64,000 bases of DNA from Mucilaginibacter rubeus (lineage in GTDB: Bacteria > Bacteroidota > Bacteroidia > Sphingobacteriales > Sphingobacteriaceae). The notes beneath the pieces were generated by a model. That model made no database searches. It was not told the origin of the DNA and saw nothing but the letters and a program-made list of their open reading frames with translations. Positions 10,778-52,598 of the stretch are shown piece after piece. The position numbers and the translations under genes were made by a program. Position 1 is the stretch's first letter, and each line of letters starts with the position of its first letter. The stretch covers positions 868,001 through 932,000 of the forward strand of contig NZ_BMKD01000001.1 of the NCBI RefSeq assembly GCF_014643835.1, read 5' to 3'.

Positions 10778-10809
10778 TTGGTGATTTAGTGAGTTAGCGA
10801 ATTAGTGAT
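10778..10809 (-). repeat. four tandem 8-bp units directly after the sirtuin stop codon
   Basis: Read on the minus strand, the 32 bases after the TAA at 10810-10812 are four copies of NTCRCYAA. The array begins at the first base after the stop and ends 6 bases before the next start codon. It is the only octamer among the post-stop arrays in this window. Confidence 0.8.
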
Positions 10810-11496
10810 TTAATCCTTTAATAATTGGTTCACTAATTCAGGTACGCCAACTGTTGCTTTTTCCTGGATTTTAATAACCGGCCCTTTAACATTTACAAAA
10901 GGTATATTGGGATCGATAATATACTTTGGCGTCTCGCGGTCAACATAACCGATAAGCCCTGCGGCCGGGTAAACAGCAAGGGAGGTACCTATAAGCATAA
11001 ATATATCAGCCCCCACGCATATAGCGGCTGCATGTTCTATCATTGGTACGGGCTCACCAAACCAAACTACGTGCGCACGTAATTGTGAACCTAATTCGCA
11101 AAGCTCTCCCATTTTAATTTCCCACCCATCGATAGGATAAGTAAGTTCTGGTTTGATACTTGATTGTGAGCGGGTGATAATGCCATGTAAATGCACCACA
11201 TTGGTTGAACCTGCCCTTTCATGCAGGTCATCTATATTTTGAGTAATGATGGTTACCCTATACTTTTCTTCGAGCGCAGCAAGTGCATAGTGGGCCGCAT
11301 TAGGTTTTGCTTCCAATACAGATTTACGGCGCTCGTTATAAAATTGCTGTACCATAACCGGGTTATGCTCCCAGGCTTCGGGGGTGGCTACGTCTTCAAT
11401 ATTATACCCTTCCCAAAGCCCATCGCTATCCCTGAAGGTTTTTAAACCACTTTCGGCGCTGATACCTGCGCCGGTTAACACTACTAAGTTTTTCAT
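10810..11496 (-). CDS. Sir2-family NAD-dependent protein deacylase, without zinc-binding cysteines
   Basis: 228 residues. NAD pocket GAGISAESGL (9-18) and FRD (21-23), QNIDDLHERAG (86-96), catalytic His104 in VHLHG, VVWFGE and the IGTSLAVYPAA loop. The YxxR pair (Y53, R56) marks class III sirtuins (CobB, SIRT5), which remove succinyl/malonyl as well as acetyl groups. The small domain (105-150) has one cysteine instead of the two CxxC pairs, so structural zinc appears lost. ATG at 11496 chosen; the frame reaches 11556 but that part overlaps a terminator. Salmonella CobB can compensate for loss of CobT in B12 synthesis, of interest next to btuB. Confidence 0.92.
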   Translation of the reverse strand: MKNLVVLTGAGISAESGLKTFRDSDGLWEGYNIEDVATPEAWEHNPVMVQQFYNERRKSVLEAKPNAAHYALAALEEKYRVTIITQNIDDLHERAGSTNVVHLHGIITRSQSSIKPELTYPIDGWEIKMGELCELGSQLRAHVVWFGEPVPMIEHAAAICVGADIFMLIGTSLAVYPAAGLIGYVDRETPKYIIDPNIPFVNVKGPVIKIQEKATVGVPELVNQLLKD

Positions 11497-11528
11497 TTTA
11501 ATATAAACAGATGATAATTGATTAGGCC

Positions 11529-11570
11529 ATAAAAAAAGCGGACTGCCTTTCAACAATCCGCTTTAAATTT
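11529..11570 (-). terminator. intrinsic terminator after the DUF6580 gene
   Basis: On the minus strand AAAGCGGATTG pairs with CAGTCCGCTTT (one mismatch) around an eight-base loop and is followed by a run of Ts. It lies 14 bases after the DUF6580 stop and before the sirtuin start, so it should separate btuB-DUF6580 from the sirtuin and Dph6-like genes, unless it acts as an attenuator. Confidence 0.75.
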
Positions 11571-11583
11571 AAACGCTTTTATA

Positions 11584-12156
11584 TTATAAAGCCAATTGCT
11601 TTTTGTCCTGAAGAAAAGTGTACTTATTCTTAGCCAATTCAAAACCACCAAAAAGTATTGCACTAAATACTAATGTACCCAATGCCATATTTTTCTCAAA
11701 CGGAATAGCTTTAATCAATGATTCACCATAGCCAGCTAAGGTATGCGGATAAAGTGTACCATATAACCAGGGCAGATCTGTAATTAACCAGTGAATTAAA
11801 ACTGCTGCGATTGAGCCTAAAAGCACATTAAGAACATTTACCTTTTCAAGCAAATTACCAACAAGCACCATTAATGCAAAACACAGGTAAACCCATGCGG
11901 CTCCGCCATACCATAAAGTTAACTTTGAAGTATACAGGTAATTAATCACGATATCTGTAGTAAACAACGTAAGCAATACAGTAGCATACCCTTTCCACTT
12001 TGAGGTAAAATAAGCACCGCCAAATAATGCAATAGCACCTACCGGATTGAAATTACTCAATTCTTTATACTTAAATGCTAAAAGCCTGAATGCGGCAGCA
12101 ACCAGGATCATCAGGATCAGAAACAGGTTGCGGTTGGTGTTATCTTTTGCGGTCAT
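11584..12156 (-). CDS. DUF6580-like integral membrane protein, candidate cobalamin or precursor permease
   Basis: 190 residues with five to six predicted membrane helices and the NFNPVGAIALFGGAYF segment (about 35-50) seen in DUF6580 proteins, which resemble ECF S-components and related substrate-binding membrane proteins. It has a single cysteine (C92) inside a helix. It follows the BtuB-like gene by 51 bases and lies downstream of the cobalamin riboswitch. From that context I infer a role in moving cobalamin or a precursor across the inner membrane, solo or with shared ECF subunits, as known for BtuM and CbrT. Not proven by sequence. Confidence 0.75.
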   Translation of the reverse strand: MTAKDNTNRNLFLILMILVAAAFRLLAFKYKELSNFNPVGAIALFGGAYFTSKWKGYATVLLTLFTTDIVINYLYTSKLTLWYGGAAWVYLCFALMVLVGNLLEKVNVLNVLLGSIAAVLIHWLITDLPWLYGTLYPHTLAGYGESLIKAIPFEKNMALGTLVFSAILFGGFELAKNKYTFLQDKKQLAL

Positions 12157-12207
12157 GATTTTATATATGGCGTAAAATTACTTAATAATCCGAACAATAC
12201 GCAAACG

Positions 12208-14157
12208 CTATTTAAATTGATACCTGGCACCAAGCAAGAAGTTGATACCACGGGTGTTATATCCTAACCAATCTACGTATTTGGTATCCAAAACGTTGTT
12301 CAGATCGCCAAAAACATTTAGATTTTTGGTTGCCTTGTATTCCAAATGTAAATCTACCAGGTTATAGTGTTTCAATGTAATCACTTCCGATCCATTGTTT
12401 GTAAAAGTCAGGTCAGTACGGTTGCCTGTATATTTGTAGTTAACGCCAACCTGAAAATCGTTTAAAATATCATAACTGATGTTGGTACCTAAAGTACTTT
12501 TAGGCCTGCGGTAAAGGTTGCCGGTTTGTGTACCGGCTTCGTCGGTTAGTTTACCTGTTACATAAGCGTAATATGCAGATGCATGAATGTTATTATCGTG
12601 ATATTTTAATTCGGTTTCAAAGCCTTTATCTTTTTGCTGTTGCCCGTTTGCATATTGACTATAAGGAGGGCCAGACAGGTTTTTAAAATAGATAACATCT
12701 TTGGTATTGCGCTTGAAAAACTGGGTATTAAATGAAAGGGTATTCTTAACAATCTCCCAATCAAAACCAGCTTCATATGATGTAGTGATCTCGGGGTTTA
12801 ATTTCGAATTACCATATTGCGAAAACAGTTGATATAGCGAAGGTGATTTGAAGGCCGAAGCTATGGTACCAAAGATCTTAAACTGATCGGCAAGGAATAA
12901 TGATGGGTTGATGGTGTAGGTAAACTTGTCGCCATATTTGCTATGGTTGTTGTACCTGCCACCTAACTCCATGTGGAAGATATCGTATTTGAAAAATAAC
13001 GACGTATAAGCGCTGAATATGTTATTAGCAGCATCACCAGCTTTAATAATGCTCGGCACACCCGGATAAGATGTTGATTCATACAGACTGTACTGGCTTG
13101 TGTTGCTGTATTTAAAGGCCGCACCGCTGGTAATATCAAAATACTTATTCAATTCATAATTAAACACAGCTTCGACATTGGTTATACGACCTGTATTTTT
13201 TGTAACCTGGTGGGTTCCGTAATTGTCAGATGGCAGGTTATTGAAATCATTTTGAACCGTATTTTGCGACAGGTTCACGTTGAGGTTACCTTTTGGTAAA
13301 ATCAATTTTGCACCTATGCCACCAAATAAAAATGTGTTTTTATAAGTGTAATCATTGTCGTTTATAAAAGAACCGTAAGGCAGATCACCAGTATTGTGGC
13401 TCACCTGCAGGTTTCCATTAAGAATAAATTTAGATGAGACATTTTGGCTCAGGTTTACACTGGCCGAACGTTGGTGAAAACCATCTTTCTTAAAATCGCC
13501 TTTGCCAGTGGTATCTGTAGCCGCGGCAAAGCCTTTTGAATCGGTATTTGACAGATTAATGGCTATGCCTGTATTTTTCACCTGTCCAATTAATGAGGCC
13601 GACTCTTTGAACGTATTATAGCTGCCACCTGTTAGCTGCAATCCACCGGTTAATCCTTGCTGTTTAGCTTTTTTTGTGATGATATTAATAACGCCTGCTA
13701 CAGCATCAGAACCATACAGCGTTGAACCGCTTCCTTTCAAGATCTCGATATGATCTATCAGATCCAGCGAAAAAGCGTTAAGATCATAACTACCATCAAT
13801 GCCCGAAGCATTGTTTACCGGAAAACCATCAACCAGGATAAGGGTATTGCCAGATGAAGCCCCGCGCAGGAAAACCGATGTGCTGATACCGGGGGCATTA
13901 TTTGCACCAGAAAAAGTTATCCCGGCAACCGTATTTAATAATTGAGGCAATGATTTGCCCTGCGATTTATTGATCTCATCGGCAGAAATGATGGTAACAA
14001 CGCGGCCAATGTCTGACAGTTTTTTAGGCGACCGGCTTGCAGTTACTACTACCGTATTGAGTGTGCGTGTGGTATCCTGTGCATATGCTGCTGAGGTAGA
14101 TAACCCAACAGTTAACAAACCGAATCCTAAAATAATTTTAGCGTACTTTTTTTCCAT
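12208..14157 (-). CDS. btuB: TonB-dependent receptor, BtuB-like cobalamin uptake
   Basis: 649 residues. Signal peptide to AYAQ, TonB-box-like NTVVVTASR, plug domain (about 45-150, with LILVDGFPVNN and GSGSTLYGSDAVAGVINIITKK) and a 22-strand barrel ending in GINFLLGARYQFK. Length and plug sequence suit the BtuB/Cir group. Cobalamin as ligand is inferred from the cobalamin riboswitch in its leader. It lacks the CarboxypepD_reg N-domain and SusD partner of polysaccharide systems. The ATG at 14157 is used because it starts the signal peptide; the frame extends to 14244 without homology. Confidence 0.9.
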   Translation of the reverse strand: MEKKYAKIILGFGLLTVGLSTSAAYAQDTTRTLNTVVVTASRSPKKLSDIGRVVTIISADEINKSQGKSLPQLLNTVAGITFSGANNAPGISTSVFLRGASSGNTLILVDGFPVNNASGIDGSYDLNAFSLDLIDHIEILKGSGSTLYGSDAVAGVINIITKKAKQQGLTGGLQLTGGSYNTFKESASLIGQVKNTGIAINLSNTDSKGFAAATDTTGKGDFKKDGFHQRSASVNLSQNVSSKFILNGNLQVSHNTGDLPYGSFINDNDYTYKNTFLFGGIGAKLILPKGNLNVNLSQNTVQNDFNNLPSDNYGTHQVTKNTGRITNVEAVFNYELNKYFDITSGAAFKYSNTSQYSLYESTSYPGVPSIIKAGDAANNIFSAYTSLFFKYDIFHMELGGRYNNHSKYGDKFTYTINPSLFLADQFKIFGTIASAFKSPSLYQLFSQYGNSKLNPEITTSYEAGFDWEIVKNTLSFNTQFFKRNTKDVIYFKNLSGPPYSQYANGQQQKDKGFETELKYHDNNIHASAYYAYVTGKLTDEAGTQTGNLYRRPKSTLGTNISYDILNDFQVGVNYKYTGNRTDLTFTNNGSEVITLKHYNLVDLHLEYKATKNLNVFGDLNNVLDTKYVDWLGYNTRGINFLLGARYQFK

Positions 14158-14287
14158 GTATGATTGATATGTATAAAATAATAATGCAGCCTTAATAGCA
14201 TACACGGAAATGAATAAAATGAAAACACGCCAAACGAAGAGCATTCACATCCAAGCTTCAATCCCCGAAAGCTATGAATAACATATA

Positions 14288-14450
14288 ATGCCTTGGCAGG
14301 TCTTCTGACTTGCTCCCCATTTTGCCTGGCCTTCCCTCCTGTTTACAGAAAGTGGCTGTATAGATTTGGCAACGGTTACGGAGCTTACAGCTGCGGGACA
14401 GTTACGGATTTACACCATATTCCCTTTTAATTCATTAAAAAAATAGTTTA
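14288..14450 (-). promoter_or_regulatory. cobalamin riboswitch
   Basis: Read on the minus strand the leader contains the conserved cobalamin aptamer parts in order: GGGAATATGGTGTAAATCCG, then ACTGTCCCGCAGCTGTAAGC, the B12 box GCCACT (at 14351-14356), and the 3' segment AGTCAGAAGACCTGCC (ending at 14295). This is the classical arrangement of the adenosylcobalamin class. It ends about 130 bases before the btuB start codon. In this class ligand binding normally lowers expression, here of btuB and the DUF6580 gene. Confidence 0.95.
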
Positions 14451-14468
14451 ATGAAACCTAAAGCGCTG

Positions 14469-14500
14469 CAAAAGTACAATAAGTATCTGTTAACCTCAAA
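14469..14500 (-). promoter_or_regulatory. candidate promoter for riboswitch-btuB transcript
   Basis: On the minus strand TTTG is followed after 20 bases by TACTTTTG, an exact fit to the Bacteroidota sigma-ABfr -7 element TAnnTTTG. Predicted start of transcription is about 14462, just ahead of the aptamer. It overlaps the leader of the divergent serine hydrolase gene. Confidence 0.65.
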
Positions 14501-14519
14501 CTACATAACTATATTTATC

Positions 14520-15779
14520 ATGATGAAATATTGCTGCATTTTATTATTGATGATGAGCTCGTTTGGCAGTTTTGCCCAGCAACCAGATACCATTTTTCTG
14601 AAGGGTTTGCTACATGAACATCCCGAATTCTTTTCAGGTATCCTGAACCATATTACACAAAACGAGGTGCAAATACTGTATACCCGGATAGACAGGGATA
14701 AAAACAACATTCCTCACTTTACCTCATACAGTTATCGCCTTAATGCGCAGCATTATTTTTATCCGGCAAGCACGGTAAAGCTTCCGACGGCCATATTTGC
14801 GCTGGAAAGACTTAACGAATTAAAAATAAAAGGCTTAAGTCGTAAATCGGTCATGATTACTGATAGCGCATTTGCCGGCCAAACTAAAGTTAAAATAGAT
14901 ACATCATCCTCAACAGGTTTGTCGAGTATCGAAAATTATATTAAAAAGATCTTGCTGGTAAGCGATAATGATGCATATAACCGGCTCTATGAATTTGTCG
15001 GCCGTACAGAGATCAATCAAAAGCTAAAGAAGTATCATCTTAACAATACCCGTATTGTAGGCAGGTTAGCCATAGGTGATGCAGGCGAAAGCACAAAGCA
15101 CACCAACCCTATTGATTTTTACAATGATAATAAGCTAATTTATCAGAAACCGGCGCTATATGATGCGTCAAATTATCCCATGCACCTGGAAAACATGCTG
15201 CAGGGTAAAGCTTATTTAGATAGCAGCGAACGGCTGGTTAACAAGCCTCTTGACTTTTCTGAAAAGAATGTTTACTCTCTCGCCGATCAGCAAATGGTGC
15301 TTAAAAGGTTGTTGTTTCCTGAAACTTTCCCTAAAAAGCAACGCTTTAATTTAACGATAGATGACTATCGCTTCATTTACCGTTATATGAGTACCTTCCC
15401 CACCGAAAACACCAAACCCACCTATCGCCGCCCCGAATATTTCCCTGCTTATTGCAAGTTTTTGTTCTATGGCGGAGACAGTACAGCAGTTATTAACCCT
15501 GACATCAGGATCTTTAATAAAGTTGGTGATAGTTATGGTTATGATATTGATAATGCATATATCGTAGATTTTAAAAACAATGTTGAGTTCATGCTCAGTG
15601 CCGTCGTGCAATCAAATGAAGATGGGATACTGAACGATAATAAATACGAGTACACAACGGTATGCCTGCCTTTCCTGAAAAACCTTGGCCAGGTGATATA
15701 CCAATATGAACTCAAGCGCCCTAAAAAACACCTGCCCCATTTAACTAAATTTAAATTTACTTATAGCAAAAAGCAATAA
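14520..15779 (+). CDS. secreted class A beta-lactamase-like serine hydrolase
   Basis: 419 residues. Signal peptide (MMKY... to SFAQ, cut about residue 20) followed by a beta-lactamase2-type domain: SxxK nucleophile STVK (S84, K87), an SDN motif in LLVSDNDAYNRL, and a KVG triad near the C-terminus in place of KTG. The SDN sequence points to the class A group, but the 419-residue length and the divergent context argue for a periplasmic peptidase or esterase rather than a resistance enzyme. ATG at 14520 is chosen at the signal peptide; the frame reaches 14451. Confidence 0.82.
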   Translation: MMKYCCILLLMMSSFGSFAQQPDTIFLKGLLHEHPEFFSGILNHITQNEVQILYTRIDRDKNNIPHFTSYSYRLNAQHYFYPASTVKLPTAIFALERLNELKIKGLSRKSVMITDSAFAGQTKVKIDTSSSTGLSSIENYIKKILLVSDNDAYNRLYEFVGRTEINQKLKKYHLNNTRIVGRLAIGDAGESTKHTNPIDFYNDNKLIYQKPALYDASNYPMHLENMLQGKAYLDSSERLVNKPLDFSEKNVYSLADQQMVLKRLLFPETFPKKQRFNLTIDDYRFIYRYMSTFPTENTKPTYRRPEYFPAYCKFLFYGGDSTAVINPDIRIFNKVGDSYGYDIDNAYIVDFKNNVEFMLSAVVQSNEDGILNDNKYEYTTVCLPFLKNLGQVIYQYELKRPKKHLPHLTKFKFTYSKKQ

Positions 15780-15844
15780 AATTCACTTCTGGAAAACTTA
15801 GTAGCCCTAAAGGTGTTTTAAAAACGATAACTATTTAAAAACCT

Positions 15845-17720: not shown

Positions 17721-17751
17721 ACCATAAAAATAGACACTCAAATAATTAAAA

Positions 17752-24051: not shown

Positions 24052-25002
24052 ATGGATATATCAGTTATAGTACCTCTTTACGATGAAGTAGAGTCGTTAC
24101 CCGAATTAACCTCTTGGATTAGCCGGGTAATGGACGAAAACCGTTTTACTTACGAGATAATTTTGGTTGACGATGGCAGCAAGGACGGATCATGGGAAAT
24201 GATCAGGAAGCTGCAAACCGGTAATCCTTTTATCAAAGGCATTAAATTCAGGCGTAATTATGGTAAATCCGCAGCCCTTAACACCGGTTTTATCGCTGCC
24301 AAAGGCAATGTGGTGATCACCATGGATGCCGATTTGCAGGATAGTCCGGATGAGATCCCGGAACTTTACCGCCGGATAACTGAAGAGAAATACGACCTTG
24401 TTTCGGGCTGGAAAGCAAAAAGGCACGACCCATTGAGCAAAACTATACCTACCAAACTATTCAACGCGGCAACCCGTCGTATGAGTGGCATCCATAACCT
24501 GCACGATTTTAATTGCGGTTTAAAAGCCTATCGTAATGTTGTAGTTAAAAACATTGAAATTTATGGCGAGATGCACCGTTATATCCCGGTTCTGGCAAAA
24601 TGGGCCGGCTTCACCAAAATTGGCGAACAGGTTGTTGAGCACCGTCCTCGTAAATATGGCAAAACCAAGTTTGGCTTAAGCCGGTTTATCAACGGCTTTC
24701 TCGATCTGCTTTCAATTTTCTTTGTAGGTAAATTTGGCAAGCGTCCGATGCATTTTTTTGGTACGCTGGGCACATTGAGCTTTTTTACGGGTTTGATTAT
24801 GGCCATCTGGATAATTTGGGAAAAGCTTTACAATATAGCACACAACCTAAAATACAGGGATGTAACCACGAGTCCGCTGTTTTATATAGCATTGGTAGCT
24901 ATCATATTAGGTTCACAATTGTTTTTAACAGGCTTTGTTGCCGAGCTTGTTTCACGCAGCGCAAGCGAACGTAACCATTATCAAATTGAGGAAACAATTT
25001 AA
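24052..25002 (+). CDS. family 2 glycosyltransferase, DPM1/GtrB type, with two membrane helices
   Basis: 316 residues. GT-A domain with VDDGSKDGS (about 41-49), RRNYGKSAALNTGF and the DAD metal motif in MDADLQDSPDEIP, then DFNCGLKAYR. Two C-terminal helices (about 230-255 and 275-300) anchor it in the membrane. This layout matches polyprenyl-phosphate glycosyltransferases that load undecaprenyl phosphate with a sugar for use outside the membrane. First gene of a rightward run to rseP. Confidence 0.92.
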   Translation: MDISVIVPLYDEVESLPELTSWISRVMDENRFTYEIILVDDGSKDGSWEMIRKLQTGNPFIKGIKFRRNYGKSAALNTGFIAAKGNVVITMDADLQDSPDEIPELYRRITEEKYDLVSGWKAKRHDPLSKTIPTKLFNAATRRMSGIHNLHDFNCGLKAYRNVVVKNIEIYGEMHRYIPVLAKWAGFTKIGEQVVEHRPRKYGKTKFGLSRFINGFLDLLSIFFVGKFGKRPMHFFGTLGTLSFFTGLIMAIWIIWEKLYNIAHNLKYRDVTTSPLFYIALVAIILGSQLFLTGFVAELVSRSASERNHYQIEETI

Positions 25003-25085
25003 TTAGATTTGAGATGTTAGATATGAGATTTGAGACTTTTTGAATACTTGCTTCCTGTCTCATATCTAACATCTCAAATCTCACA
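25003..25085 (+). repeat. post-stop 7-bp array forming a 24-bp palindrome
   Basis: The first base after the GT2 stop starts five 7-bp units of the forms TTAGATN and TGAGATN (25003-25037). Bases 25005-25028 are perfectly complementary to 25058-25081, so the array and its inverted copy form a 24-bp stem with a 29-base loop. It fills almost the whole gap to the next gene. Confidence 0.9.
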
Positions 25086-25099
25086 TCTATTCTAAAAAC

Positions 25100-29490: not shown

Positions 29491-30825
29491 ATGAGTATAG
29501 TGATCATGGTGGGCCAGCTTATACTGGGCCTTTCAATTTTGATAATCCTGCATGAACTGGGGCATTTCCTGGCGGCACGGGCCTTTGGCATTAAGGTAGA
29601 AAAATTCTACCTGTTTTTTGATGCCTGGAACGTGAGCCTGTTTAAATTTACATATAAAGGCGTTGAGTATGGTATTGGCTGGCTACCACTTGGTGGCTAT
29701 GTTAAAATTGCCGGTATGATTGATGAATCGATGGATACAGAACAAATGGCTGGTCCGCCGCAACCTTGGGAGTTTCGTTCAAAACCAGCTTGGCAGCGCC
29801 TTATTGTAATGCTTGGTGGTGTTACGGTAAATGTTATACTGGGCATCTTGATATTTTGGGTGCTAACCATGCGTTTTGGCGATAGTTATATACCTAATTC
29901 GGCAGCAAAATACGGTATTGTACCAGGTGAAGTAGGTAAAAAAATAGGCCTTCAAATAGGCGACAAGGTTGTTGCTATCAATGGTAAGCCATTTGAACGT
30001 TTTGATGATCTTACAAGTCCGCAGGTATTATTGGATAATACTGTTTTTACCGTGTTGCGTGGCACCCAAACTTTGCAGATCAGCATTCCGCGTACCATCC
30101 TAAATGATTTGAACGATCATGATATAGAAGGTTTCATCAGTCGCCTGCCCCGTGCCAAGTTCATTGTTGATTCATTGGAACCGGGCAGTAATGCTGTAAA
30201 AGCAGGTTTAAAAAAGGGCGACAGCATTGTAATGGCCAACAATCATCCAATTGTATTTTGGGACGAATTGCAGGCTCAACTATCGGCTAATAAAGGCAAA
30301 CAGGTTGAACTGGGTATAAAACGCAACCATGAACTGGTTACCTTGAAAGCACAGGTTACGCCAGAAGGCAAGCTGGGCTTTTACCGTGCAAAAAGCGATT
30401 TTCCGGATATCAAAACAATAAAGTACGGTTTTTTCGAAGCTTTTCCTATAGGAGCACAAAGAGCATGGGGAACTTTCAGGGATAATGCCAAAGGTATCGG
30501 TAAGATTTTCAGAGGTGATGTTAACCCTAGTAAAGCAGTAAGCGGACCGGTAGCTATAGCCAACCTGTTTGGTGGTACTGTTGATTGGGTCCACTTTTGG
30601 ACATTGGTAGGCTTTCTTTCGATGGTATTGGCATTGATGAACCTTTTGCCTATCCCGGCGCTTGACGGAGGTCACGCGGTATTCCTGATCATTGAAATGA
30701 TTAAAGGTAAACCGTTGAGCGATAAGTTCCTTGAACGCGCCCAGATTGTAGGCTTTGTAATTTTAGTTACCCTAATGGTATTTGTTTTTGGTAACGATAT
30801 TGTGAAGCTGGTAATGAAGAAATAG
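29491..30825 (+). CDS. rseP: RIP site-2 protease RseP
   Basis: 444 residues, four membrane helices. Zinc site HELGH (21-25) in the first helix, third ligand motif NLLPIPALDGGH in the third helix, and two PDZ domains between them (about 125-200 and 210-285). Cuts anti-sigma factors inside the membrane to release sigma factors during envelope stress. Lies 19 bases after dxr, a common bacterial order. Followed directly by a 7-bp array and a terminator. Confidence 0.95.
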   Translation: MSIVIMVGQLILGLSILIILHELGHFLAARAFGIKVEKFYLFFDAWNVSLFKFTYKGVEYGIGWLPLGGYVKIAGMIDESMDTEQMAGPPQPWEFRSKPAWQRLIVMLGGVTVNVILGILIFWVLTMRFGDSYIPNSAAKYGIVPGEVGKKIGLQIGDKVVAINGKPFERFDDLTSPQVLLDNTVFTVLRGTQTLQISIPRTILNDLNDHDIEGFISRLPRAKFIVDSLEPGSNAVKAGLKKGDSIVMANNHPIVFWDELQAQLSANKGKQVELGIKRNHELVTLKAQVTPEGKLGFYRAKSDFPDIKTIKYGFFEAFPIGAQRAWGTFRDNAKGIGKIFRGDVNPSKAVSGPVAIANLFGGTVDWVHFWTLVGFLSMVLALMNLLPIPALDGGHAVFLIIEMIKGKPLSDKFLERAQIVGFVILVTLMVFVFGNDIVKLVMKK

Positions 30826-30859
30826 CGATTAGAGATTAGTGATTGGAGGTTAGAGATGC
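30826..30859 (+). repeat. post-stop 7-bp array, NGATTAG type
   Basis: Starts at the first base after the rseP TAG. Four to five units of NGATTAG with single changes (NGATTGG, NGGTTAG). Same unit family and same orientation relative to the gene as the arrays after trxB and the carboxyltransferase gene. The intrinsic terminator starts 12 bases later. Confidence 0.88.
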
Positions 30860-30955: not shown

Positions 30956-30997
30956 AGAATTAGCTTTAAGCTTTGAGCATTCTGCTTTCAGCTTGTT
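30956..30997 (-). repeat. post-stop 7-bp array, NNAAAGC type
   Basis: On the minus strand the first base after the TAA of the DUF4199 gene begins five exact-period units of NNNAAGC/NNAAAGC (30963-30997), with a sixth degenerate one. The mirror arrangement with the rseP array gives stop-array-terminator-array-stop in this convergent gap. Confidence 0.85.
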
Positions 30998-31564
30998 TTA
31001 TACCGCCGGATCAATAGGTTTAGGATCTTCGTAATTATCGGAAACGGTGTCAAAAGGTGATCTTTCATTTTTGAATACCGCTGCCGAGATCAGACTCACT
31101 ATAGCGCCAAAAATGGCGTATATAAATACAACGCTTACTGTCGCTATAACCGCAAAATATTTACTTACCATACTTAAGGCATTGTCTATTTGATCCTGCG
31201 ACAGATTTCCTTTTGCTTCCATTTGCGCGCGTGAGGCAGTTAGGGCCTTATTAACCATTTCCGGACTTAATATCGCATAATATACATAAGTGAATACCGC
31301 AACGAAAACTCCTGTAAAAATCGCATATAAAAAACCGGATAAAAAGCCTTCTCCGTAGGTAATATATCCGCCAAGCTGATCTTTGTATTCTTTTTGCGTT
31401 AACAGCAAGAAAGCGATGAAGGGCAAAAAGCTCAGGTATTTAAGAGATGAGTTGGGGTCAATATCAAGAAACTGAAATGCATAAGTTATAACTATTGAAG
31501 TTACCAGGTTAATTAGCGCCCACTTCAGGGCTGGTTGCGATGGGCTCGCTTTTTTTATTTCCAT
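30998..31564 (-). CDS. DUF4199 membrane protein
   Basis: 188 residues with four membrane helices: about 12-30, 40-56, 72-98 and 138-168. A hydrophilic loop rich in A, M and Q (about 100-135) sits between helices 3 and 4, and the tail is acidic. This matches DUF4199, a family confined largely to Bacteroidota. Function unknown; often next to glycosyltransferase or dihydroorotase genes. A paralogue lies 464 bases upstream. Confidence 0.82.
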   Translation of the reverse strand: MEIKKASPSQPALKWALINLVTSIVITYAFQFLDIDPNSSLKYLSFLPFIAFLLLTQKEYKDQLGGYITYGEGFLSGFLYAIFTGVFVAVFTYVYYAILSPEMVNKALTASRAQMEAKGNLSQDQIDNALSMVSKYFAVIATVSVVFIYAIFGAIVSLISAAVFKNERSPFDTVSDNYEDPKPIDPAV

Positions 31565-40575: not shown

Positions 40576-40581
40576 TTAAAG

Positions 40582-40617
40582 TGATTAGAGATTGGAGGTT
40601 AGAGATTAGTGTCTTAG
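40582..40617 (+). repeat. post-stop 7-bp array, NGATTAG type
   Basis: Six bases after the trxB stop begin four units of NGATTAG form (with single changes) and one diverged unit. It ends 4 bases before the terminator hairpin. Same family as the arrays at 30826 and 44015. Confidence 0.9.
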
Positions 40618-40621
40618 CCTC

Positions 40622-40655
40622 AAAAAAGCGATAGGTTTTGCCTGTCGCTTTTTTA
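40622..40655 (+). terminator. intrinsic terminator after trxB
   Basis: AAAAAGCGA.AGG pairs with CCT.TCGCTTTTT around a TTTTG loop, followed by TTATTTT. Confidence 0.85.
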
Positions 40656-40659
40656 TTTT

Positions 40660-40859
40660 CAAAGTACTCATCATTAAATAGCAACCGTGTTAGATTGCAA
40701 TGGAAAGTCCACAGCGAGTATTGGGATTGTGGGCGGGCAAAGAGAGGCGAAGTATGTAATCATCTCTACTATTGAACTAACATTTTTACACATTAAAACT
40801 TTTTAAATTTTTTAAAAAAGTTTTATCTTACGGGCTCACACTAACCTGTTAGATAAATT
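40660..40859. other. leader region before the GH20 gene, no gene called
   Basis: 200 bases. 40680-40760 is unusually GC-rich for a non-coding stretch here and includes GGAAAGTCCACAG and a 19-codon frame (40700-40759) with no other support. 40793-40828 is an AT-rich inverted repeat (AAAACTTTTT with AAAAAAGTTTT) before the start of hexB-like gene. It may be a leader or a degraded sequence. Confidence 0.3.
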
Positions 40860-43927: not shown

Positions 43928-43975
43928 TTTAGTTTGCGTTACAAACGAGCGCAAGGCGAAACAAATCAAAATATT

Positions 43976-44014: not shown

Positions 44015-44048
44015 TTAATCACTAATCTCCAACCTCTAATCACTAAGA
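44015..44048 (-). repeat. post-stop 7-bp array, NGATTAG type, minus strand
   Basis: Read on the minus strand: after the TGA of the carboxyltransferase gene come six bases (TCTTAG) and four units of NGATTAG form, running straight into the terminator hairpin. The array is therefore in the same sense orientation as those after rseP and trxB, though on the other strand. Confidence 0.9.
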
Positions 44049-45763: not shown

Positions 45764-45858
45764 CAGTTAGCAGTAAATAGTTGGCAACAGGCAGTTCATT
45801 AGCTTATAAAACCTTCGCAAACACCAAAACTTTTGACTTAAAACTTCGAACTTAAGAC
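45764..45858 (-). repeat. post-stop 7-bp arrays after the LOG gene
   Basis: On the minus strand the base after the LOG stop begins at least five units of the form GTYNNAA (45858-45824). A second run of six units of the plus-strand form CAGTTNG (45764-45805) follows, also with period 7. A hairpin with AATTTCC/GGAAATT arms (45710-45734) lies beyond. Confidence 0.82.
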
Positions 45859-46443
45859 TTAAATAAGGTTTTTGTCTTTAAACCATACTTCATCCGGTTT
45901 TACGTCGAAATTATCCATCAGGTTTACCAGCTCTATCGGATCGCCTGAGGTAAGAATCAGTTCGCGATTGGTTGGCTTCAGAAAACGTTGTTCAACCATT
46001 ACATCCATTTGTTTAAGTAACAGATCGTAAAAGCCGTTGACGTTGAGCAAGCCGATAGGATGGTTATGCAAACCCAACTGCAGCCAGGTTAGCACCTCAA
46101 AAAACTCCTCAAGAGTGCCCCATCCGCCCGGAAGCGTAATGATGCCTTCACTAAGATCGTTCATCATTTGTTTACGCTGATGCATATTTTCTACAATGTG
46201 CAACTCGGTTAAACCTGTATGTCCTACTTCTTTATCCATCAAAAACTGCGGGATTATACCGATAACTTTACCTCCCCTGCTTAACACAGCATCGGCCATC
46301 AAACCCATAACGCCAACTTTACCGCCGCCAAACACAAGTGTAATGTTACGGCTTACCATAACCTCTGCCAATAGTTCGATGGCTTGTTTTAATGCAGGAT
46401 CGCCATTGAAATTGGCACCGCAGAACACACAGATAGATTTCAT
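45859..46443 (-). CDS. LOG family protein (TIGR00730), cytokinin riboside 5'-monophosphate phosphoribohydrolase-like
   Basis: 194 residues, Rossmann fold. Family marks: MKSICVFCGAN at the start, GGGKVGVMGLMADAVL, and PGGWGTLEEFFEVLTWLQLG containing the PGGxGTxxE nucleotide motif. Homologues hydrolyse N6-modified AMP or simple nucleotide monophosphates to base and ribose 5-phosphate. The ATG at 46443 gives the family N-terminus. Confidence 0.9.
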   Translation of the reverse strand: MKSICVFCGANFNGDPALKQAIELLAEVMVSRNITLVFGGGKVGVMGLMADAVLSRGGKVIGIIPQFLMDKEVGHTGLTELHIVENMHQRKQMMNDLSEGIITLPGGWGTLEEFFEVLTWLQLGLHNHPIGLLNVNGFYDLLLKQMDVMVEQRFLKPTNRELILTSGDPIELVNLMDNFDVKPDEVWFKDKNLI

Positions 46444-47320: not shown

Positions 47321-47332
47321 GTTATTATCAAA

Positions 47333-47378
47333 AACAAAAGCGGCTGAAAGATAGAGGATCTTTCAGCCGCTTTTGTTT
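47333..47378. terminator. bidirectional intrinsic terminator
   Basis: AACAAAAGCGGCTGAAAGAT pairs perfectly with its inverted copy across AGAG. Lies between the convergent secreted-protein gene and guaB. Confidence 0.9.
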
Positions 47379-47398
47379 TATGCAGTTTATATTAAGAA

Positions 47399-48871
47399 TT
47401 ACCTGCTTGTATAGTTAGGCGCTTCTTTAGTGATAGTAATATCATGCGGATGACTTTCGCGCATACCAGCAGCGGTGATCCTCACAAATTTGGCACGTTG
47501 GAGGTCTTCGATATTGGCAGCACCGCAATAGTGCATGCCGGCACGTAAACCACCGATGTACTGGAAAATCACTTCGGCCATGCTGCCTTTAAACGGCACG
47601 CGACCAACAATTCCTTCTGGTACCAGTTTTGTCACTACATCGGTTTCATCCTGAAAATAGCGGTCTTTTGAGCCTTTGGCCATCGCCTCAACCGAACCCA
47701 TACCACGGTATGATTTAAATTTACGGCCTTCATATATAATAGTTTCGCCGGGCGACTCTTCAACACCGGCAAATAATGAACCTGCCATAATTGAGCTTGC
47801 GCCGGCGGCAATAGCTTTAACGATATCTCCGGTTTGTTTAATACCGCCATCGGCAATTACCGGAACCCCACGACCTTCAAGTGCCTTGGCGCATTCATAT
47901 ACCGCGTATAACTGTGGTACACCCACACCGGCAATGATACGGGTTGTACAAATCGAGCCCGGGCCAATACCTACTTTAACCGCATCAGCACCGGCATCAG
48001 CAAGTGCGATAGCAGCATCGCCTGTTGCGATGTTGCCGGCAATTACCTGTAGGTTAGGATAGAGTTTTTTAACTGCCTTAACCATATCAATAACTCCTTT
48101 TGAATGGCCATGAGCTGTATCAACCGTAATTACGTCAACACCGGCATTAACCAGGGCGGTTACCCGGTCAATGTTATCGGCGGCCACACCAACGGCTGCA
48201 CCAACACGTAAACGACCGTATTCGTCTTTACAAGCGTTAGGGAAGTTTTTAACTTTCTGAATATCTTTATAAGTGATGAGGCCTACCAGTTTCCCATCTT
48301 TATTCACAACCGGTAGTTTCTCAATCTTATTACTTTGCAATATGTTGGCAGCGTCAACTAAAGTAGTTCCTTCAGGTGCAGTGATCAGGTTGGTTTTGGT
48401 CATTACTTCGCTCACGGGAACGCTCATATCTTTTTGGAAGCGAAGATCACGATTGGTGATAATGCCTTTCAGATTATGATCGGCATCAATAACCGGGATA
48501 CCACCAATGCTAAATTCCCTCATGATCTGGAAAGCGTCTGCAAGCAAGGCGTCTTCCAGTAAAGTTACCGGATCCTGGATCATACCGCTTTCTGAGCGTT
48601 TAACCTTGCGCACCTCGTCGGCCTGTGCCTGTATGGTCATGTTTTTGTGTAACATGCCTATACCGCCTGCCTGTGCAATGGCAATAGCCAGATCAGCCTC
48701 AGTAACGGTATCCATGGCTGCCGAAATGATAGGAATGTTTAACCGGATGCTTTTAGTTAAGTAAGTGCCGGTATTCACTTCGCGCGGTAACACTTCTGAA
48801 TAAGCCGGGAGTAGTAAAACGTCGTCGTAAGTTAATCCTTCGGCAACAAATTTTGATGGGTCTAACTGCAT
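47399..48871 (-). CDS. guaB: inosine-5'-monophosphate dehydrogenase
   Basis: 490 residues; oxidises IMP to XMP, the first step to GMP. Barrel with [12 protein letters not shown], two CBS domains inserted at about 95-205, the catalytic cysteine C308 in GPGSICTTR, and the flap with [12 protein letters not shown]. Full length. A TACCTTTG -7 element lies 35 bases upstream. Convergent terminator downstream. Confidence 0.97.
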
Positions 48872-48905
48872 AGCAAATAATTATTTTGGAGTTATTATTT
48901 GCCGG

Positions 48906-48913
48906 GCAAAGGT
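48906..48913 (-). promoter_or_regulatory. candidate -7 element for guaB
   Basis: TACCTTTG on the minus strand fits TAnnTTTG exactly; predicted start about 48900. The -33 side is not a clean TTTG, because it runs into the palindromic repeat region. Confidence 0.45.
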
Positions 48914-48924
48914 AATAAAATATT

Positions 48925-49149
48925 TCGGATTTTGGAATTTCGCTTTTCTATTTATTTAAAATTGCCTTAAGATGATAATTCGGGATTTGGGATTTCGAAT
49001 GTTCGATTTCGGATTTATTTTATTTTTACTGCTCAAATCCATTCAAGAATTTTGGAATTTCGCTTTCTGATTCGCCGTTAGACAAATCAAAAAGCGAAAT
49101 TCCGAAATCAAAGTAATCCGAAATCGAACATCCCAATTCCGAAATCAAA
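48925..49149. repeat. inverted 7-bp repeat arrays between guaB and M16 gene
   Basis: 225 bases of T/G-rich 7-bp units. On the minus strand units of TTTGATT/TCGGAAT form begin at the first base after the M16 stop (49149). The left half carries the inverted version (for example 48999-49015 is the exact reverse complement of 49115-49131, and 49054-49066 of 49091-49103). The word GGAATTTCGCTTT or its complement occurs three times. The region can fold into a long branched hairpin. Confidence 0.85.
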
Positions 49150-50427
49150 TTAATATTTCCCTACAATCACTTTATAAAACTGATCGAAGTTGAAATACGT
49201 ATTGGCCAGTTGGATCAGCTTATCTGAAGTTATGTTTTTTACGGTCACCGTGTACCTGTCATAATAATCGTAATCCAAACCTGCAAAATAGATGGTTTTG
49301 AATTTATCAGCATGTGAAAATACATTTTCCAAACTTCCTAATAATGAGCCTAACATGTAATTGCGCACCAGGGAAAGTTCCTCTTCCGGTACCAGTTCGG
49401 TTTTCAACAGGTTCATTTCTTTTTCAATCTCGGCAACCGCCGACTTACAAACATCTGCACCAACCTCTGTCGCTATAAAGAATGATCCGCCCTGCTTAAA
49501 TGACGCCAGCCCTGATCCTATACCATAGGTATATCCTTTATCCTCGCGGATATTAGCCATTAACCGCGATCCAAAATAACCACCGAATACTGTATTTAAA
49601 ACCTGTAACGCCTGGAAGTCTTCATGCGAACGGTTGATGATAGGCGTACCTATCCGGATAGCCGATTGCAAAGCTTCCGGTTTTTCTGTAAAATAAAACA
49701 GGTCGGCGGCGGCTTTAATATCGGGCTGAATTGTAACCGCCGGGGTTGGGCTGTTTTCCCAGTCTTTATCAAACGTATCGGTAAGCAATGTCAGCATTTC
49801 AGGCTCAATCTTACCCGCTATAACGATAGTGCAATTGGAAGGCTGGTACATTTTTTTGTAATGTGCCAGCATATCATCATGCTGTAGGGTTTGATAGTCG
49901 GTCATCTCAGCAGCATATCCAAAAATGGTAGTTCCATAAACAGCCCTGTTAAATGCTCTGCGGGCCACCACATCATTTTTTTGCAGACTAACCTGCAATT
50001 TTTGTTGTTGGTTGCGCTTAAAGGTTTCCAGTTCCTTCTTCGGAAAAATGGAATTATTCAGGATATCGGCAATAACCGGTAAAGTATGGTGCAGGTGTTT
50101 ATTTAAGCTATACAGTGTTACCTGCGAGTTTTCATATCCATAGTCAACCTGTAAAAAGGCGCCGTAAAAGTCAATTTTGTCGGCAATCTGTGCAGCAGTT
50201 AAAGTTGTAGTGCCATCAGTAAGCATGGAGTTTACGGCCATGTTAAGCAATGGTTTCGCCGGATCAAAGCTTAGGTTACCGAAGACCCACTCAATGCGCA
50301 CAAGCTCCTGGTCGCCGGAGTTAAAGCAAAAAATGTTGCAGCCATTGCTTAGTTTCTTGTGCTCTGGCCTAATCAGATTAATATTATCGATAGCCCTGAA
50401 TTCGGGGGCTAATTTTCTGTTGATCAT
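49150..50427 (-). CDS. M16-family peptidase-like protein, catalytically inactive partner
   Basis: 425 residues, two M16 half-domains. The HxxEH zinc motif expected near residue 60 is absent: the equivalent helix reads LLNMAVNSMLTDGT. The R/Y pair of the C-terminal half is kept (ANIREDKGYTYGIGSGL), as in the non-catalytic subunits of heterodimeric M16 peptidases. It probably binds the active subunit encoded next to it, 107 bases upstream. No signal peptide, so cytosolic or exported by other means. Confidence 0.9.
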   Translation of the reverse strand: MINRKLAPEFRAIDNINLIRPEHKKLSNGCNIFCFNSGDQELVRIEWVFGNLSFDPAKPLLNMAVNSMLTDGTTTLTAAQIADKIDFYGAFLQVDYGYENSQVTLYSLNKHLHHTLPVIADILNNSIFPKKELETFKRNQQQKLQVSLQKNDVVARRAFNRAVYGTTIFGYAAEMTDYQTLQHDDMLAHYKKMYQPSNCTIVIAGKIEPEMLTLLTDTFDKDWENSPTPAVTIQPDIKAAADLFYFTEKPEALQSAIRIGTPIINRSHEDFQALQVLNTVFGGYFGSRLMANIREDKGYTYGIGSGLASFKQGGSFFIATEVGADVCKSAVAEIEKEMNLLKTELVPEEELSLVRNYMLGSLLGSLENVFSHADKFKTIYFAGLDYDYYDRYTVTVKNITSDKLIQLANTYFNFDQFYKVIVGKY

Positions 50428-50442
50428 ATGTATATTGTTTAT

Positions 50443-50528
50443 CTGAATCAGAATTTACAGAATTTTACAATTCACAGAATGCCATTTGAAATTCAGCTAA
50501 TTCTTAAATTCTGTAAATTCTGATTCAG
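50443..50528. repeat. 23-bp perfect palindrome after the active M16 gene
   Basis: 50443-50465 is the exact reverse complement of 50506-50528. On the minus strand it starts 6 bases after the stop of the active M16 gene. The word GAAT recurs at 6-9 base spacing, so it is a looser relative of the 7-bp arrays. It may also act as a terminator or mRNA-stabilising hairpin between the two M16 genes. Confidence 0.8.
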
Positions 50529-50534
50529 ACGGTT

Positions 50535-51773
50535 TTATTTCTCAGCCAAATAAATAAGTGTTGATGAATTATCTTTTCTGAACAGTTTATTGGCTTGTGC
50601 TTTTACCTGGGCAGCGTTTACAGCAAGATATTTTGCTGTTTCATGGTTGATCAGGTCAGCATCACCCAGCAATTCAAATGAGGCCAGGTTCATGGCCTTA
50701 TCCAATAGCGACATTTCGGAAAATATCATGGTTGACTCGGTTTTGTTCTGAACTTTAGTAAGTTCATCTGCCGGGATTCCCTCAGTTTTTATTTTCTCCA
50801 GTTCCTCCCATAATGCAGTCTCTGCCTGTTCAATGCTGATGCCATCGAGCGGTTTGCCTTCTAACACAAACATGCCTTTATCCAAACTGCCGGTAATATA
50901 GGCATGCACCTCGCTAAAAATCTGTTTTTCCTTAATCAGCGATTTATATAACCGTGATGAATTGCCGCGCGAAAGAATATCCGAAAGCAGCTCTACCACA
51001 TAGTAATCTTGATCTGTGCGGGCCCCCATCTGAAAAGCGATATACACATCATTGAGTGGTACTTTGGCGGTAACCGTTTCGCGGCGGGCTTCCTGCTGTT
51101 CAGGTTCCTGGGGAAGGCTGCGGTGATATCTTTCGCCGGCCGGGATCGGAGCAAACCATTTTTCGGAGAGCTCTTTTACCTGTTCAGTTGTTACGTTACC
51201 CCCTACTACCATAATGGCGTTTTGTGGGTTATAATGTTTTTTGAAGAACGCTTTTACGTCTTCGATTTGTGCATCCTCGATATGTTTGATGGTTTTGCCG
51301 ATAGTCGCCCAACGATAAGGGTGTTTTTTGTAAACCAGCGGACGAAGCTTTAACCAAACATCGCCGTATGGCTGATTTAAGTACCGCTGTTTAAACTCCT
51401 CTATAACTACGTTACGCTGCACCTCAAGGCTTTTTTCGCTAAAAGCAAGGCTCAGCATCCGGTCACTCTCCAACCAAAATGCGGTTTCCAGGTTAGCCGA
51501 TGGCAGAGTGATATAATAGTTGGTGATATCGTTGCTGGTAAAGGCATTATTTTCACCTCCTACCCTTTGCAGTGGTTCGTCATAAACAGGGATATTGACT
51601 GATCCGCCAAACATGAGATGCTCAAACAAATGGGCAAAGCCGGTTTGTTCAGGATCTTCATCGCGTGCACCAACATCATATAAAATGTTAAGCACCGCCA
51701 TTGGCGTTGTATTATCTTCATGCACAATAACCCTAAGGCCATTGTCAAGTGTGAATCGGTTGAATTTAACCAT
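50535..51773 (-). CDS. M16-family zinc peptidase, active subunit
   Basis: 412 residues. Inverted zinc motif H48-x-x-E51-H52 in FAHLFEHLMFGG with the downstream glutamate in NVVIEEFKQR (about residue 128). Two half-domains as in pitrilysin relatives. Its partner lacking the motif is encoded downstream. A TACATTTG -7 element lies about 30 bases upstream. Likely degrades small peptides. Confidence 0.93.
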   Translation of the reverse strand: MVKFNRFTLDNGLRVIVHEDNTTPMAVLNILYDVGARDEDPEQTGFAHLFEHLMFGGSVNIPVYDEPLQRVGGENNAFTSNDITNYYITLPSANLETAFWLESDRMLSLAFSEKSLEVQRNVVIEEFKQRYLNQPYGDVWLKLRPLVYKKHPYRWATIGKTIKHIEDAQIEDVKAFFKKHYNPQNAIMVVGGNVTTEQVKELSEKWFAPIPAGERYHRSLPQEPEQQEARRETVTAKVPLNDVYIAFQMGARTDQDYYVVELLSDILSRGNSSRLYKSLIKEKQIFSEVHAYITGSLDKGMFVLEGKPLDGISIEQAETALWEELEKIKTEGIPADELTKVQNKTESTMIFSEMSLLDKAMNLASFELLGDADLINHETAKYLAVNAAQVKAQANKLFRKDNSSTLIYLAEK

Positions 51774-51801
51774 GTATCTCTTAAATTTTTAATACGGATA
51801 G

Positions 51802-51830
51802 CAAATGTATAACTTTTGATGACATTGAAA
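51802..51830 (-). promoter_or_regulatory. candidate promoter for the M16 pair
   Basis: On the minus strand TACATTTG (51802-51809) fits TAnnTTTG; a TTTC lies 17 bases upstream in place of TTTG. Predicted start about 51796. Confidence 0.5.
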
Positions 51831-51896
51831 GTGAATGCCAAAAATGAACAAGTGTTTTAGGTTAGGCCCCGGTATTTTTTTACTTTTAGGCTACCA

Positions 51897-52460
51897 ATGA
51901 CCCGCGACGAACTTACCCAAAAAATAGCGAATACCATAGGCAAACTCAAAGTGCTTGAATTAAGCCGTATTTTGACGGAACAACAGTTTGATTTGCGCGA
52001 CCTGATAGAGATTACCTTTCATGCTGATAAACCCCTCGGGTTCCGTGCGGCGTGGCTCCTGGAAAACATGTTTTTAAAAGATCCTGAGGTGTTTACCAAT
52101 AATCTTGAATATTTGATTGAACGGTTACCACAGGTTACCAATCCAGGCTGCCAAAGGCATTATGCTAAAATATTGATGCACGCCACCGAAGAAAAAGAAC
52201 AATCGCCGGTAAAACAAAAACTGAACAGCATCGATCTTGAACCAGCGGTTGAGCAGCTTTTTGACTGGATGATAGATCCAAAAGTTAAAATAGCGGTGAA
52301 AGTATTTGCTGGTTGGGCTTTGTTTAATTTGCGGCACCGTTACCCCTGGGTGGCCGATGAGCTACCGGCCCAGCTTGAATTTTTAACGCGTAATGGTACG
52401 GCGGCTATCCAGTCGGCAGGAAAAAAAATGACGAAGGAATTGAGATCTAAGCCTCTCTAA
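51897..52460 (+). CDS. conserved helical repeat protein (HEAT-like)
   Basis: 187 residues, no signal peptide or membrane segment, built from short helix pairs (LTQKIANTIGKLKVLELSRIL, GFRAAWLLENMFLKDPEVF, KVKIAVKVFAGWALFNLRHRY) as in HEAT/armadillo-type alpha solenoids. In this group such proteins are often labelled adenylosuccinate lyase, but none of that enzyme's active-site motifs are present. Probably a protein-protein interaction module; partner unknown. Confidence 0.7.
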   Translation: MTRDELTQKIANTIGKLKVLELSRILTEQQFDLRDLIEITFHADKPLGFRAAWLLENMFLKDPEVFTNNLEYLIERLPQVTNPGCQRHYAKILMHATEEKEQSPVKQKLNSIDLEPAVEQLFDWMIDPKVKIAVKVFAGWALFNLRHRYPWVADELPAQLEFLTRNGTAAIQSAGKKMTKELRSKPL

Positions 52461-52519
52461 TCCCCCGAAGGGCAGACGTTTAAAAATTGGCTGTTATATT
52501 AAAAGCCAAAAGCCGCCAA

Positions 52520-52598
52520 CAAATATCCCGCTGTCCCTACAGAAATATTTGTCACCGACTTTTAACTTAAGATTTTTGACTTAAGACTTTCGACTTAC
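52520..52598 (-). repeat. post-stop 7-bp array followed by hairpin
   Basis: On the minus strand the base after the TAA at 52599-52601 starts six exact-period units of the form NNAAGTC/NNAAATC (52598-52557). Beyond it a hairpin with CAAATAT/ATATTTG arms and CTGT/ACAG inner pairs (52520-52551) may terminate transcription. Confidence 0.85.

Follow-up and report, generated by a model that had tools for sequence, protein, structure and literature searches.

We analysed a 64,000-nucleotide stretch of the Mucilaginibacter rubeus genome (contig NZ_BMKD01000001.1, positions 868,001 to 932,000 of the forward strand; hereafter the window), in which short tandem arrays of degenerate heptamers follow the stop codons of genes. 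An earlier reading of this DNA (the sequence-only reading) had described nine such stop-side arrays, all of which were found where it had placed them, and had omitted two inverted partners (25058-25088 and 48978-49016) and a decayed copy (48922-48953). The features of the window are as follows.

10778..10809, minus strand: 8-nt array of the CACTAATT class, filling the gap from the stop of a Sir2-like gene to the ATG of the next gene (10771)
25003..25037, plus strand: GAGAT-family array (left arm), directly 3' of the stop of a glycosyltransferase gene (24052-25002)
25058..25088, minus strand: GAGAT-family array (inverted right arm), shortly before the next glycosyltransferase gene (start 25100)
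30826..30857, plus strand: GATTAG-family array, 3' of rseP (TIGR00054)
30962..30994, minus strand: AAAGC-family array, 3' of the convergent gene 30998-31564
40580..40611, plus strand: GATTAG-family array, 3' of thioredoxin reductase (TIGR01292)
40622..40654, plus strand: intrinsic-terminator hairpin downstream of the 40580 array (fold of 40576-40660)
44016..44046, minus strand: GATTAG-family array, 3' of a carboxyltransferase-like gene (best model TIGR01117, below cut-off)
45826..45858, minus strand: AAGTC-like array (family by eye), 3' of a TIGR00730-family gene
48922..48953, plus strand: second TTTCGG copy, decayed (26/32 consensus matches)
48978..49016, plus strand: TTTCGG-family array, inverted partner of 49115-49146
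49115..49146, minus strand: TTTCGG-family array, 3' of gene 49150-50427 (YfmF-like, below cut-off)
52557..52598, minus strand: AAGTC-family array, 3' of gene 52599-52943

All nine stop-side arrays lie no more than 4 nt past a stop or overlap it (at 45859 and, in a whole-sequence scan, also at 30825 and 10810). The statement that the first unit begins at the first base after the stop is thus close but slightly too exact, array edges being uncertain by a few nt (the array of the gene ending at 25002 was detected from 25005). That the unit sequence differs by locus did not hold, as GATTAG is common to the sites at 30825, 40575 and 44049, and AAGTC (by eye) to those at 45859 and 52599. The 8-mer array at 10778/10810 is present, with orthologues varying in length, but belongs to a period-8 class found at start codons (see below) rather than to the stop-side class in which it had been counted. 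The closest named match of the gene 24052-25002 is from M. endophyticus (96% identity).

Excess of period-7 arrays in intergenic DNA

Degenerate tandem arrays were detected with a likelihood score, a simple lag score having proved too weak, at cut-offs of >=12 for 3' flank counts and >=13 for the intergenic scan. The Mucilaginibacter set consisted of the window and three relatives, G001 (1.2 Mb; the nearest comparison genome, with 39% of sampled 31-mers common to the window), G014 and G018, for an intergenic scan total of 2.06 Mb; outside the genus we used 72 loci, titled as Bacteroidota relatives except for one titled Roseburia. Genes were called by a longest open reading frame (ORF) rule (>=80 aa), and their start positions are therefore rough. 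The flank, scan, partner, strand, length, stop-codon and position counts over G001, G014 and G018 include orthologous arrays; the main counts were redone on G001 alone, which is free of orthologues.

Period-7 arrays were found in 7 of the 35 3' flanks of the window and in 38/603, 14/195 and 8/192 3' flanks of G001, G014 and G018, respectively, as opposed to 0-0.5 arrays in dinucleotide-shuffled 3' flanks. Divergent 5' flanks carried them in 0/9 (window), 4/193 (G001), 1/60 (G014) and 0/61 (G018) cases, and coding segments in 0/54, 0/857, 1/284 and 1/296, in the same order. The intergenic scan returned 114 arrays of period 7 and 26 of period 8, with 1, 1, 5, 4 and 3 (14 in total) at periods 5, 6, 9, 10 and 11, while shuffled intergenic DNA gave a single array in the same scan. 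Chance or base composition as the source of the arrays is ruled out by these shuffled and control-segment counts. The excess of lag-7 signal over shuffled sequence that the sequence-only reading had anticipated is present both in the approximately 2 Mb of the three relatives and in the 72 loci; in the same material array starts cluster, rather than being evenly spread over intergenic space. As a separate observation, dense 7- or 8-nt intergenic arrays were seen in metagenome-assembled genomes (MAGs) of Bacteroidales and Saprospiraceae (L088, L092, L123, L132 and other Bacteroidota loci), and in some Bacteroidota MAG loci (L106, L120, L138) some of the arrays form inverted pairs, by eye.

Position, direction and pairing of the arrays

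In the three genomes, 52 of 129 arrays overlap a stop codon or are no more than 7 nt away from one, where uniform placement in the same intergenic regions would expect 14.5; the corresponding figures are 33 of 79 (8.9 expected) for G001 alone and, with a weaker effect, 24 of 70 (10.7 expected) for the 72 loci outside Mucilaginibacter. When detection was confined to position +8 onward (964 flanks), 25 of the 40 arrays found still started at or before +16, and lag-7 self-identity does not climb until about +3/+4; at the stop codon and in the coding sequence it hardly exceeds control. We conclude from both observations that arrays do not normally include the stop codon or the coding sequence.

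Period-8 arrays are docked at the other end of genes, 18 of the 26 being no more than 7 nt from a start codon (5.7 expected), although they are not independent, since 11 of the 26 are from G014, many of them in one gene cluster. A run of similar-looking tandem genes in G014 (L164-L166, ~68-120 kb of the piece) was noticed by the way; its gaps repeatedly contain a GCAGT array of period 7 behind the stop and an 8-nt array ahead of the following start codon.

The array was claimed to lie between stop codon and intrinsic terminator, and this is borne out by a shift of the terminator stem. When the search begins at the stop, the median start of the stem is 52 nt in flanks with an array (17/51 called) and 25 nt in flanks without (207/828), and starts closer than 32 nt were found in 4/17 and 134/207 of them, respectively (p 0.0013). 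A search only behind the array would build in part of this shift, for which reason the search from the stop was used in both groups.

The relation of the arrays to the stop codons themselves was assessed by comparing orthologues. The rseP stop codon does not shift between five species that have the array and five that lack it. On the other hand, stop codons beside arrays in G001 (TAA 9, TAG 9, TGA 12, in agreement with the three-genome count) differ from those of all G001 genes with free 3' flanks (TAA 383, TAG 101, TGA 101; p 1e-4), and the raised share of TAG and TGA indicates that the array edge sometimes supplies the stop. A general rule by which the stop is a product of an ORF reading into the array was rejected, as C-termini and stops are kept in most of the orthologues shown with and without the array; single exceptions, in which the stop comes from the array, are 52599 in G001 and 134693 in G018. 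It has to be considered whether the heptamers serve to place back-up stop codons in all three frames behind a gene. The G001 counterpart of gene 52599-52943, whose protein is six residues longer and ends at the TGA of the array, would fit, as would the 44049 gene in G018, which uses an array TAG. However, TTTCGG, TGCAGAT and GCAGT units (as read from their consensus) are mostly devoid of a sense-strand stop triplet and yet are docked at stops, and arrays also occur, reversed, before starts, which makes this explanation very improbable.

The direction of the arrays follows a strict rule. With family orientation fixed from the consensus sequences of the window, so that the rule is one of consistency within families, each of the 51 stop-docked arrays with an assigned family runs in its family's common direction relative to the coding strand, and of 38 arrays ahead of a start codon 34 are reversed; at a 75% family cut the figures are 47/47 forward and 29/31 reversed, and in G001 alone all 29 stop-docked arrays are forward. 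The arrays, being forward after stops and reversed before starts, thus point into the intergenic region. They are moreover frequently paired, 60 of 140 arrays (both arms counted) having an inverted partner within 220 nt, compared with 10 having a direct partner and 5 for shuffled arrays. Of 24 cases of neighbouring arrays, 20 are of one family (chance 0.16) and 21 face inward, and same-family consensus neighbours within 400 nt are inward-facing in 39 cases and outward-facing in 2. Two inward pairs listed at 350-3500 nt turned out to be one orthologous region with ordinary genes, and a long element bracketed by arrays was not seen in 2.06 Mb.

Array families and their exchange at one site

Seven family cores account for 89 of 104 period-7 arrays (window left out) at a 75% match, compared with 5-13 of column-permuted arrays, and for 77 at an 80% match (column-permuted 1-7); the 62% cut, at which 100 arrays match, is lenient (column-permuted 60-75). 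For three of the families the variants of the unit follow one another in an order common to unrelated loci (TTTCGG, z 10.5; GATTAG, z 6.8; AAAGC, z 5.6, relative to unit-permuted controls), the observed value being reached in 0 of 60 permutations. Near-identical and near-perfect arrays had been removed before this test, leaving 14, 4, 16, 16, 10, 8 and 11 arrays, and an ordered-consensus family search was not used as evidence for unit order. Array length is likewise constrained, with 54 of 114 period-7 arrays falling between 31 and 33 nt, although the threshold would have let perfect three-unit arrays through as well.

These features bear on an origin considered in the sequence-only reading, replication slippage that starts at stops. 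In the version examined here, slippage would be local, the polymerase would favour units of 7-8 nt, and arrays would survive only at gene ends. The dominance of periods 7 and 8, the occurrence of perfect (GGTGAAA)n and (GAGGTTA)n runs, and the rseP array of L061, which has one unit fewer than that of G014 (8 nt shorter), are in its favor; the perfect runs of two families and the unit loss in L061 in fact indicate that slippage acts on existing arrays. As an origin, it is disfavoured by the unit order common to unrelated loci in three recurrent families, by the 31-33 nt peak and by the many inverted pairs; coding sequence and stop codon are, in addition, hardly part of the arrays. We therefore regard slippage at stops as a quite improbable source of the arrays.

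The turnover of families could be followed at the glycosyltransferase site (25002), for which 78 rows were compared and 73 retained after removal of five loci identical or nearly identical to others. One of six families occupies this site in 61 of the 73 species rows (22 TGCAGAT, 20 GAGAT, 11 AATTTGAA, 5 AAGAAAC, 2 GTTGATT and 1 TTTCGG), and 5 of the 12 unassigned rows still score >=12; a single array is present in L314 and none was recognised in L320. Close relatives differ at this site (G104 versus G014 and G044). For 59 of the 61 assigned rows an inverted match of >=12 follows the left arm; this is an upper bound for inverted arrays because the cross-family background is ~9 and three of the TGCAGAT loci (L245, L249, L254) carry direct copies. 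The site is empty in G050, G052, G088 and G097, whose TTTCGG and TGCAGAT totals are only 2-11 (genomes poor in both families were compared at this site for these four), and a de novo scan of 400 kb of G052 returned 5 arrays.

Pattern counts for these two families in 96 good genomes out of 120 ranged from 0 to 129 matches per genome for TTTCGG and from 0 to 172 for TGCAGAT (one array may be counted more than once, owing to overlapping matches), whereas the reversed pattern of both gave 0 in nearly all genomes and at most 5. Summed matches vary from 1 to 281 per genome within a single genus. Elsewhere, in the comparison of the 40575 site, of whose 30 loci a minority was used, a different repeat resembling CCCCACCCAACCCTCCCCTAAAGGGAGAGG was noted in L263, L273, L278 and L279 directly 3' of the thioredoxin reductase stop, where the window has its GATTAG array.

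The paired arms at 25002 can form a helix of about 25 bp (RNA fold z -8.4), raising the possibility, also named in the sequence-only reading, that the array is a selected element of the 3' untranslated region (UTR). Under this explanation the hairpin of a transcribed pair would end or protect the mRNA in place of an intrinsic terminator, any family being suitable as long as its arms match. Apart from the helix itself, the strict strand rule agrees with it, as do the arms of the same row at 25002, which match at means of 16-22 compared to ~9 across families, and the 59 of 61 assigned rows scoring >=12 (again an upper bound). Retention would also be compatible: every one of the 394 array bases of the window has an aligned counterpart in G001, but in the remaining intergenic DNA 695 of 7241 bases are unaligned. 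The aligned array bases, however, are no better conserved (identity 0.909) than other intergenic DNA (0.915) or other 3' flank DNA (0.899). Within a family, pairing a species' own arms at 25002 gives no better match than combining arms across species (permutation p 0.30, 0.78 and 0.56), and G-U mismatches (92) show no excess over A-C mismatches (110). Arm correction or compensatory change, as expected from selection on RNA-level pairing, was accordingly not seen in this comparison. Furthermore, 80 of 140 arrays are without a partner. Terminators behind the array were rarer for paired arrays (2/21) than for single ones (12/30, p 0.025), albeit with a weaker contrast when searched from the stop (4/21 versus 13/30, p 0.08), so that the difference is not clear-cut. 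Overall, neither an excess of base conservation nor arm covariation nor a G-U excess, the usual signatures of a selected 3' UTR element, accompanies the arrays, and we consider selection for such an element an unlikely explanation of them. Their use as 3'-end hairpins is possible without this use having made them.

Known repeats, candidate agents and the nature of the arrays

The short tandemly repeated repetitive (STRR) sequences of cyanobacteria are degenerate tandem heptamers, and the Mucilaginibacter arrays are like them in this feature. The likeness to cyanobacterial heptamer repeats pointed out by the sequence-only reading is supported. The closest known counterpart is the GGGAATC-type heptamers of Xanthomonas and Nostoc. 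According to the parts of the work of Rehm et al. (2015, PMC4692102) that concern these repeats, GGGAATC in Xanthomonas and GGGGA(C/T)T in Nostoc show a four-unit preference, which was related to G-quadruplexes, and form convergent inverted pairs. Most lie either on the sense strand close to a stop, which some of them overlap, or on the antisense strand close to an ORF start, in both cases at a distance of no more than 50 bp, and they are mostly intergenic, generally without a link to mobile elements. The arrays described here share with them the period of 7, the dispersed and intergenic occurrence (114 intergenic versus 18 called-coding arrays in 2.06 Mb), a preference for approximately four units (the 54 of 114 arrays at 31-33 nt), convergent inverted pairs and the rule of sense after stop and antisense before start. 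On the other hand, the same parts of that work deal with one G-rich, G-quadruplex-forming motif per organism, while Mucilaginibacter has ten or so families without a GGG per unit (as read from the arrays, the G-tracts needed for G-quadruplexes being absent), a length peak at 4.5 units, and related species with different families at one site.

A second comparison is offered by the TAACTGA direct repeats of Beggiatoaceae, cyanobacteria and five Bacteroidetes. The relevant passages of MacGregor (2015, PMC4679880) place these mostly just upstream of start codons, with one set right after a stop, note that some of these intergenic regions also contain further heptamers and that stops occur in all frames, and relate that polymerase slippage has been held responsible for the excess of heptamers in bacteria. 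They are similar in being heptamer arrays in Bacteroidetes and cyanobacteria, but as described there they consist of one motif on the start side, whereas the Mucilaginibacter units differ, are stop-side and form inward pairs.

Finally, the arrays resemble repetitive extragenic palindromic (REP) elements and the hairpins formed by REP doublets (REPINs) in being short extragenic repeats in inward inverted pairs. In the portions of two accounts used here (PMC3733652, PMC6006769), REP elements are described as 20-40 nt extragenic sequences, with inverted dimers, many within 20 bp of gene 3' ends and sometimes supplying a TAG stop, and their monomers as palindromes that end in GTAG or CGTC and have a cognate Y1 transposase, i.e. 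REP-associated tyrosine transposase (RAYT) or TnpA_REP. In contrast to REP monomers as characterized there, the arms in Mucilaginibacter are heptad arrays, and as a rule there is no cognate Y1 gene flanked by the same repeat. As to a hairpin within each arm, the picture is mixed. By eye no GTAG/CGTC tag was seen, and folding of single arms was no better than that of shuffled ones for GATTAG (-1.0 vs -1.2 kcal/mol) and AAAGG (-1.2 vs -1.1 kcal/mol) but somewhat better for AAGTC (-6.9 vs -3.2 kcal/mol), AAAGC, GTTCAT, TTTCGG and GAGAT. In the open-access literature we found no account of stop-docked heptamer pairs in Bacteroidota.

On the basis of the families, pairing, direction and turnover described above, we propose, with a probability of roughly 0.6, that the arrays are the arms of dispersed REPIN-like repeats that are copied beside stop codons by a trans-acting process and whose families interchange. 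One arm would comprise about 32 nt (4-4.5 heptads), followed by a spacer of mostly 20-150 nt and the reversed arm, a single arm being observed if the partner is missing or decayed. Ten or so such families would be copied or inserted beside stops, into the short gap between stop and terminator, and one family would replace another at a given site over time. The copying may be transposition- or REPIN-like, and gene 3' ends may be favored because insertion there would be least harmful, with an extra preference for the stop-side end besides; slippage within arrays would be a secondary process.

Several observations weigh against this proposal. In called-coding DNA (2.06 Mb) 18 arrays of period 7 and 9 of period 8 were found, the former amounting to a minority. 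The common unit order is weak in AAAGG and AAGTC (z 2.6 each), and none was detected by the unit-permuted test in GAGAT or GTTCAT. Same-direction, same-family neighbours within 400 nt also occur (11 and 17 cases, although 5 and 13 of them are register shifts of <40 nt). Inward same-family neighbours 400-2000 nt apart were absent from the 2.06 Mb, and thus no long, transposase-bearing version was seen. The spacers between copies look unrelated in most pairs, by eye, unlike those of miniature inverted-repeat transposable elements (MITEs); GAGAT copies at two loci do have a few bases beyond the arm in common. A clean pair of empty and filled sites with a target-site duplication was not found, nor did searches with PF01797 and RVT_1 identify a transposase or other copying agent. 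Only a modest correlation links the number of Y1 transposases to summed matches (rho 0.50, or 0.37 once genome size is allowed for). PF01797 gave no match in ten good genomes, some of them with arrays (G036, G073, G098 and G131 have 44 to 60 matches and no hit).

With respect to particular agents, a reverse transcriptase was rejected, RVT_1 being detected in 4 of 16 genomes and in none of the array-rich G014, G040, G079, G096 and G009. The Y1/RAYT transposases (PF01797, searched in 5, 16 and 120 genomes) were rejected in view of the modest correlation, the array-bearing genomes without a match and the absence of enrichment in cis, as 30 Y1/RAYT loci (~96 kb) contain 5 arrays, about the background, and 20 of the 30 genes have other inverted repeats (score >=20) at their flanks. 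In the sole case of its kind among these loci (L230, G001 C10), a RAYT-like gene lies between inward TTTCGG arrays (1003-1034 and 2010-2041), and this locus also carries another inverted repeat. A CGTTACAAACGAGCGCAAGG repeat in the window (~43937-43957), the complement of which also flanks RAYT genes in G001 (L216) and G014 (L217), is a REP-like repeat of the genus, separate from the heptamer arrays. TnpA of subclass 1.2 was considered because the strong PF01797 hits (L201-L204, L206-L208, L210, L211, L214 and others) carry its Y---Q--HH motif. This subclass, according to the part of PMC6006769 that treats it, is mostly from Cyanobacteria and Bacteroidetes and generally without IS200-type ends. 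Proteins with the motif at L201, L203 and L207 have other inverted repeats at their flanks, and subclass 1.2 as the agent is a weak lead.

New here with respect to the heptamers of Xanthomonas and Nostoc are the many families and the way they replace one another at one site, together with the fact that G-quadruplexes no longer explain unit number. The same unit number, pairing, strand rule and docking in another phylum without G-tracts argue for a shared copying or docking process, as do the different families at one conserved site in related species. More tentatively, such arrays might constitute a class of mobile repeats defined by architecture (a 7- or 8-nt period, ~4.5 units, inward pairs and docking at gene ends) across Bacteroidota, with other units in Xanthomonas and Nostoc, although we would not yet count this as the probable case. 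In that event, explaining the four-unit preference by G-quadruplexes would be a special case. The range of 1 to 281 summed matches per genome means that the responsible gene can be sought, and a note of caution applies to annotation, in that such arrays should not be taken for locus-specific regulatory signals. On the wider, more tentative reading of a class defined by architecture, families of arms would radiate, amplify in some genomes, nearly vanish from others and swap at fixed sites, and this would imply a new trans-acting machinery that copies short heptad arms to gene ends.

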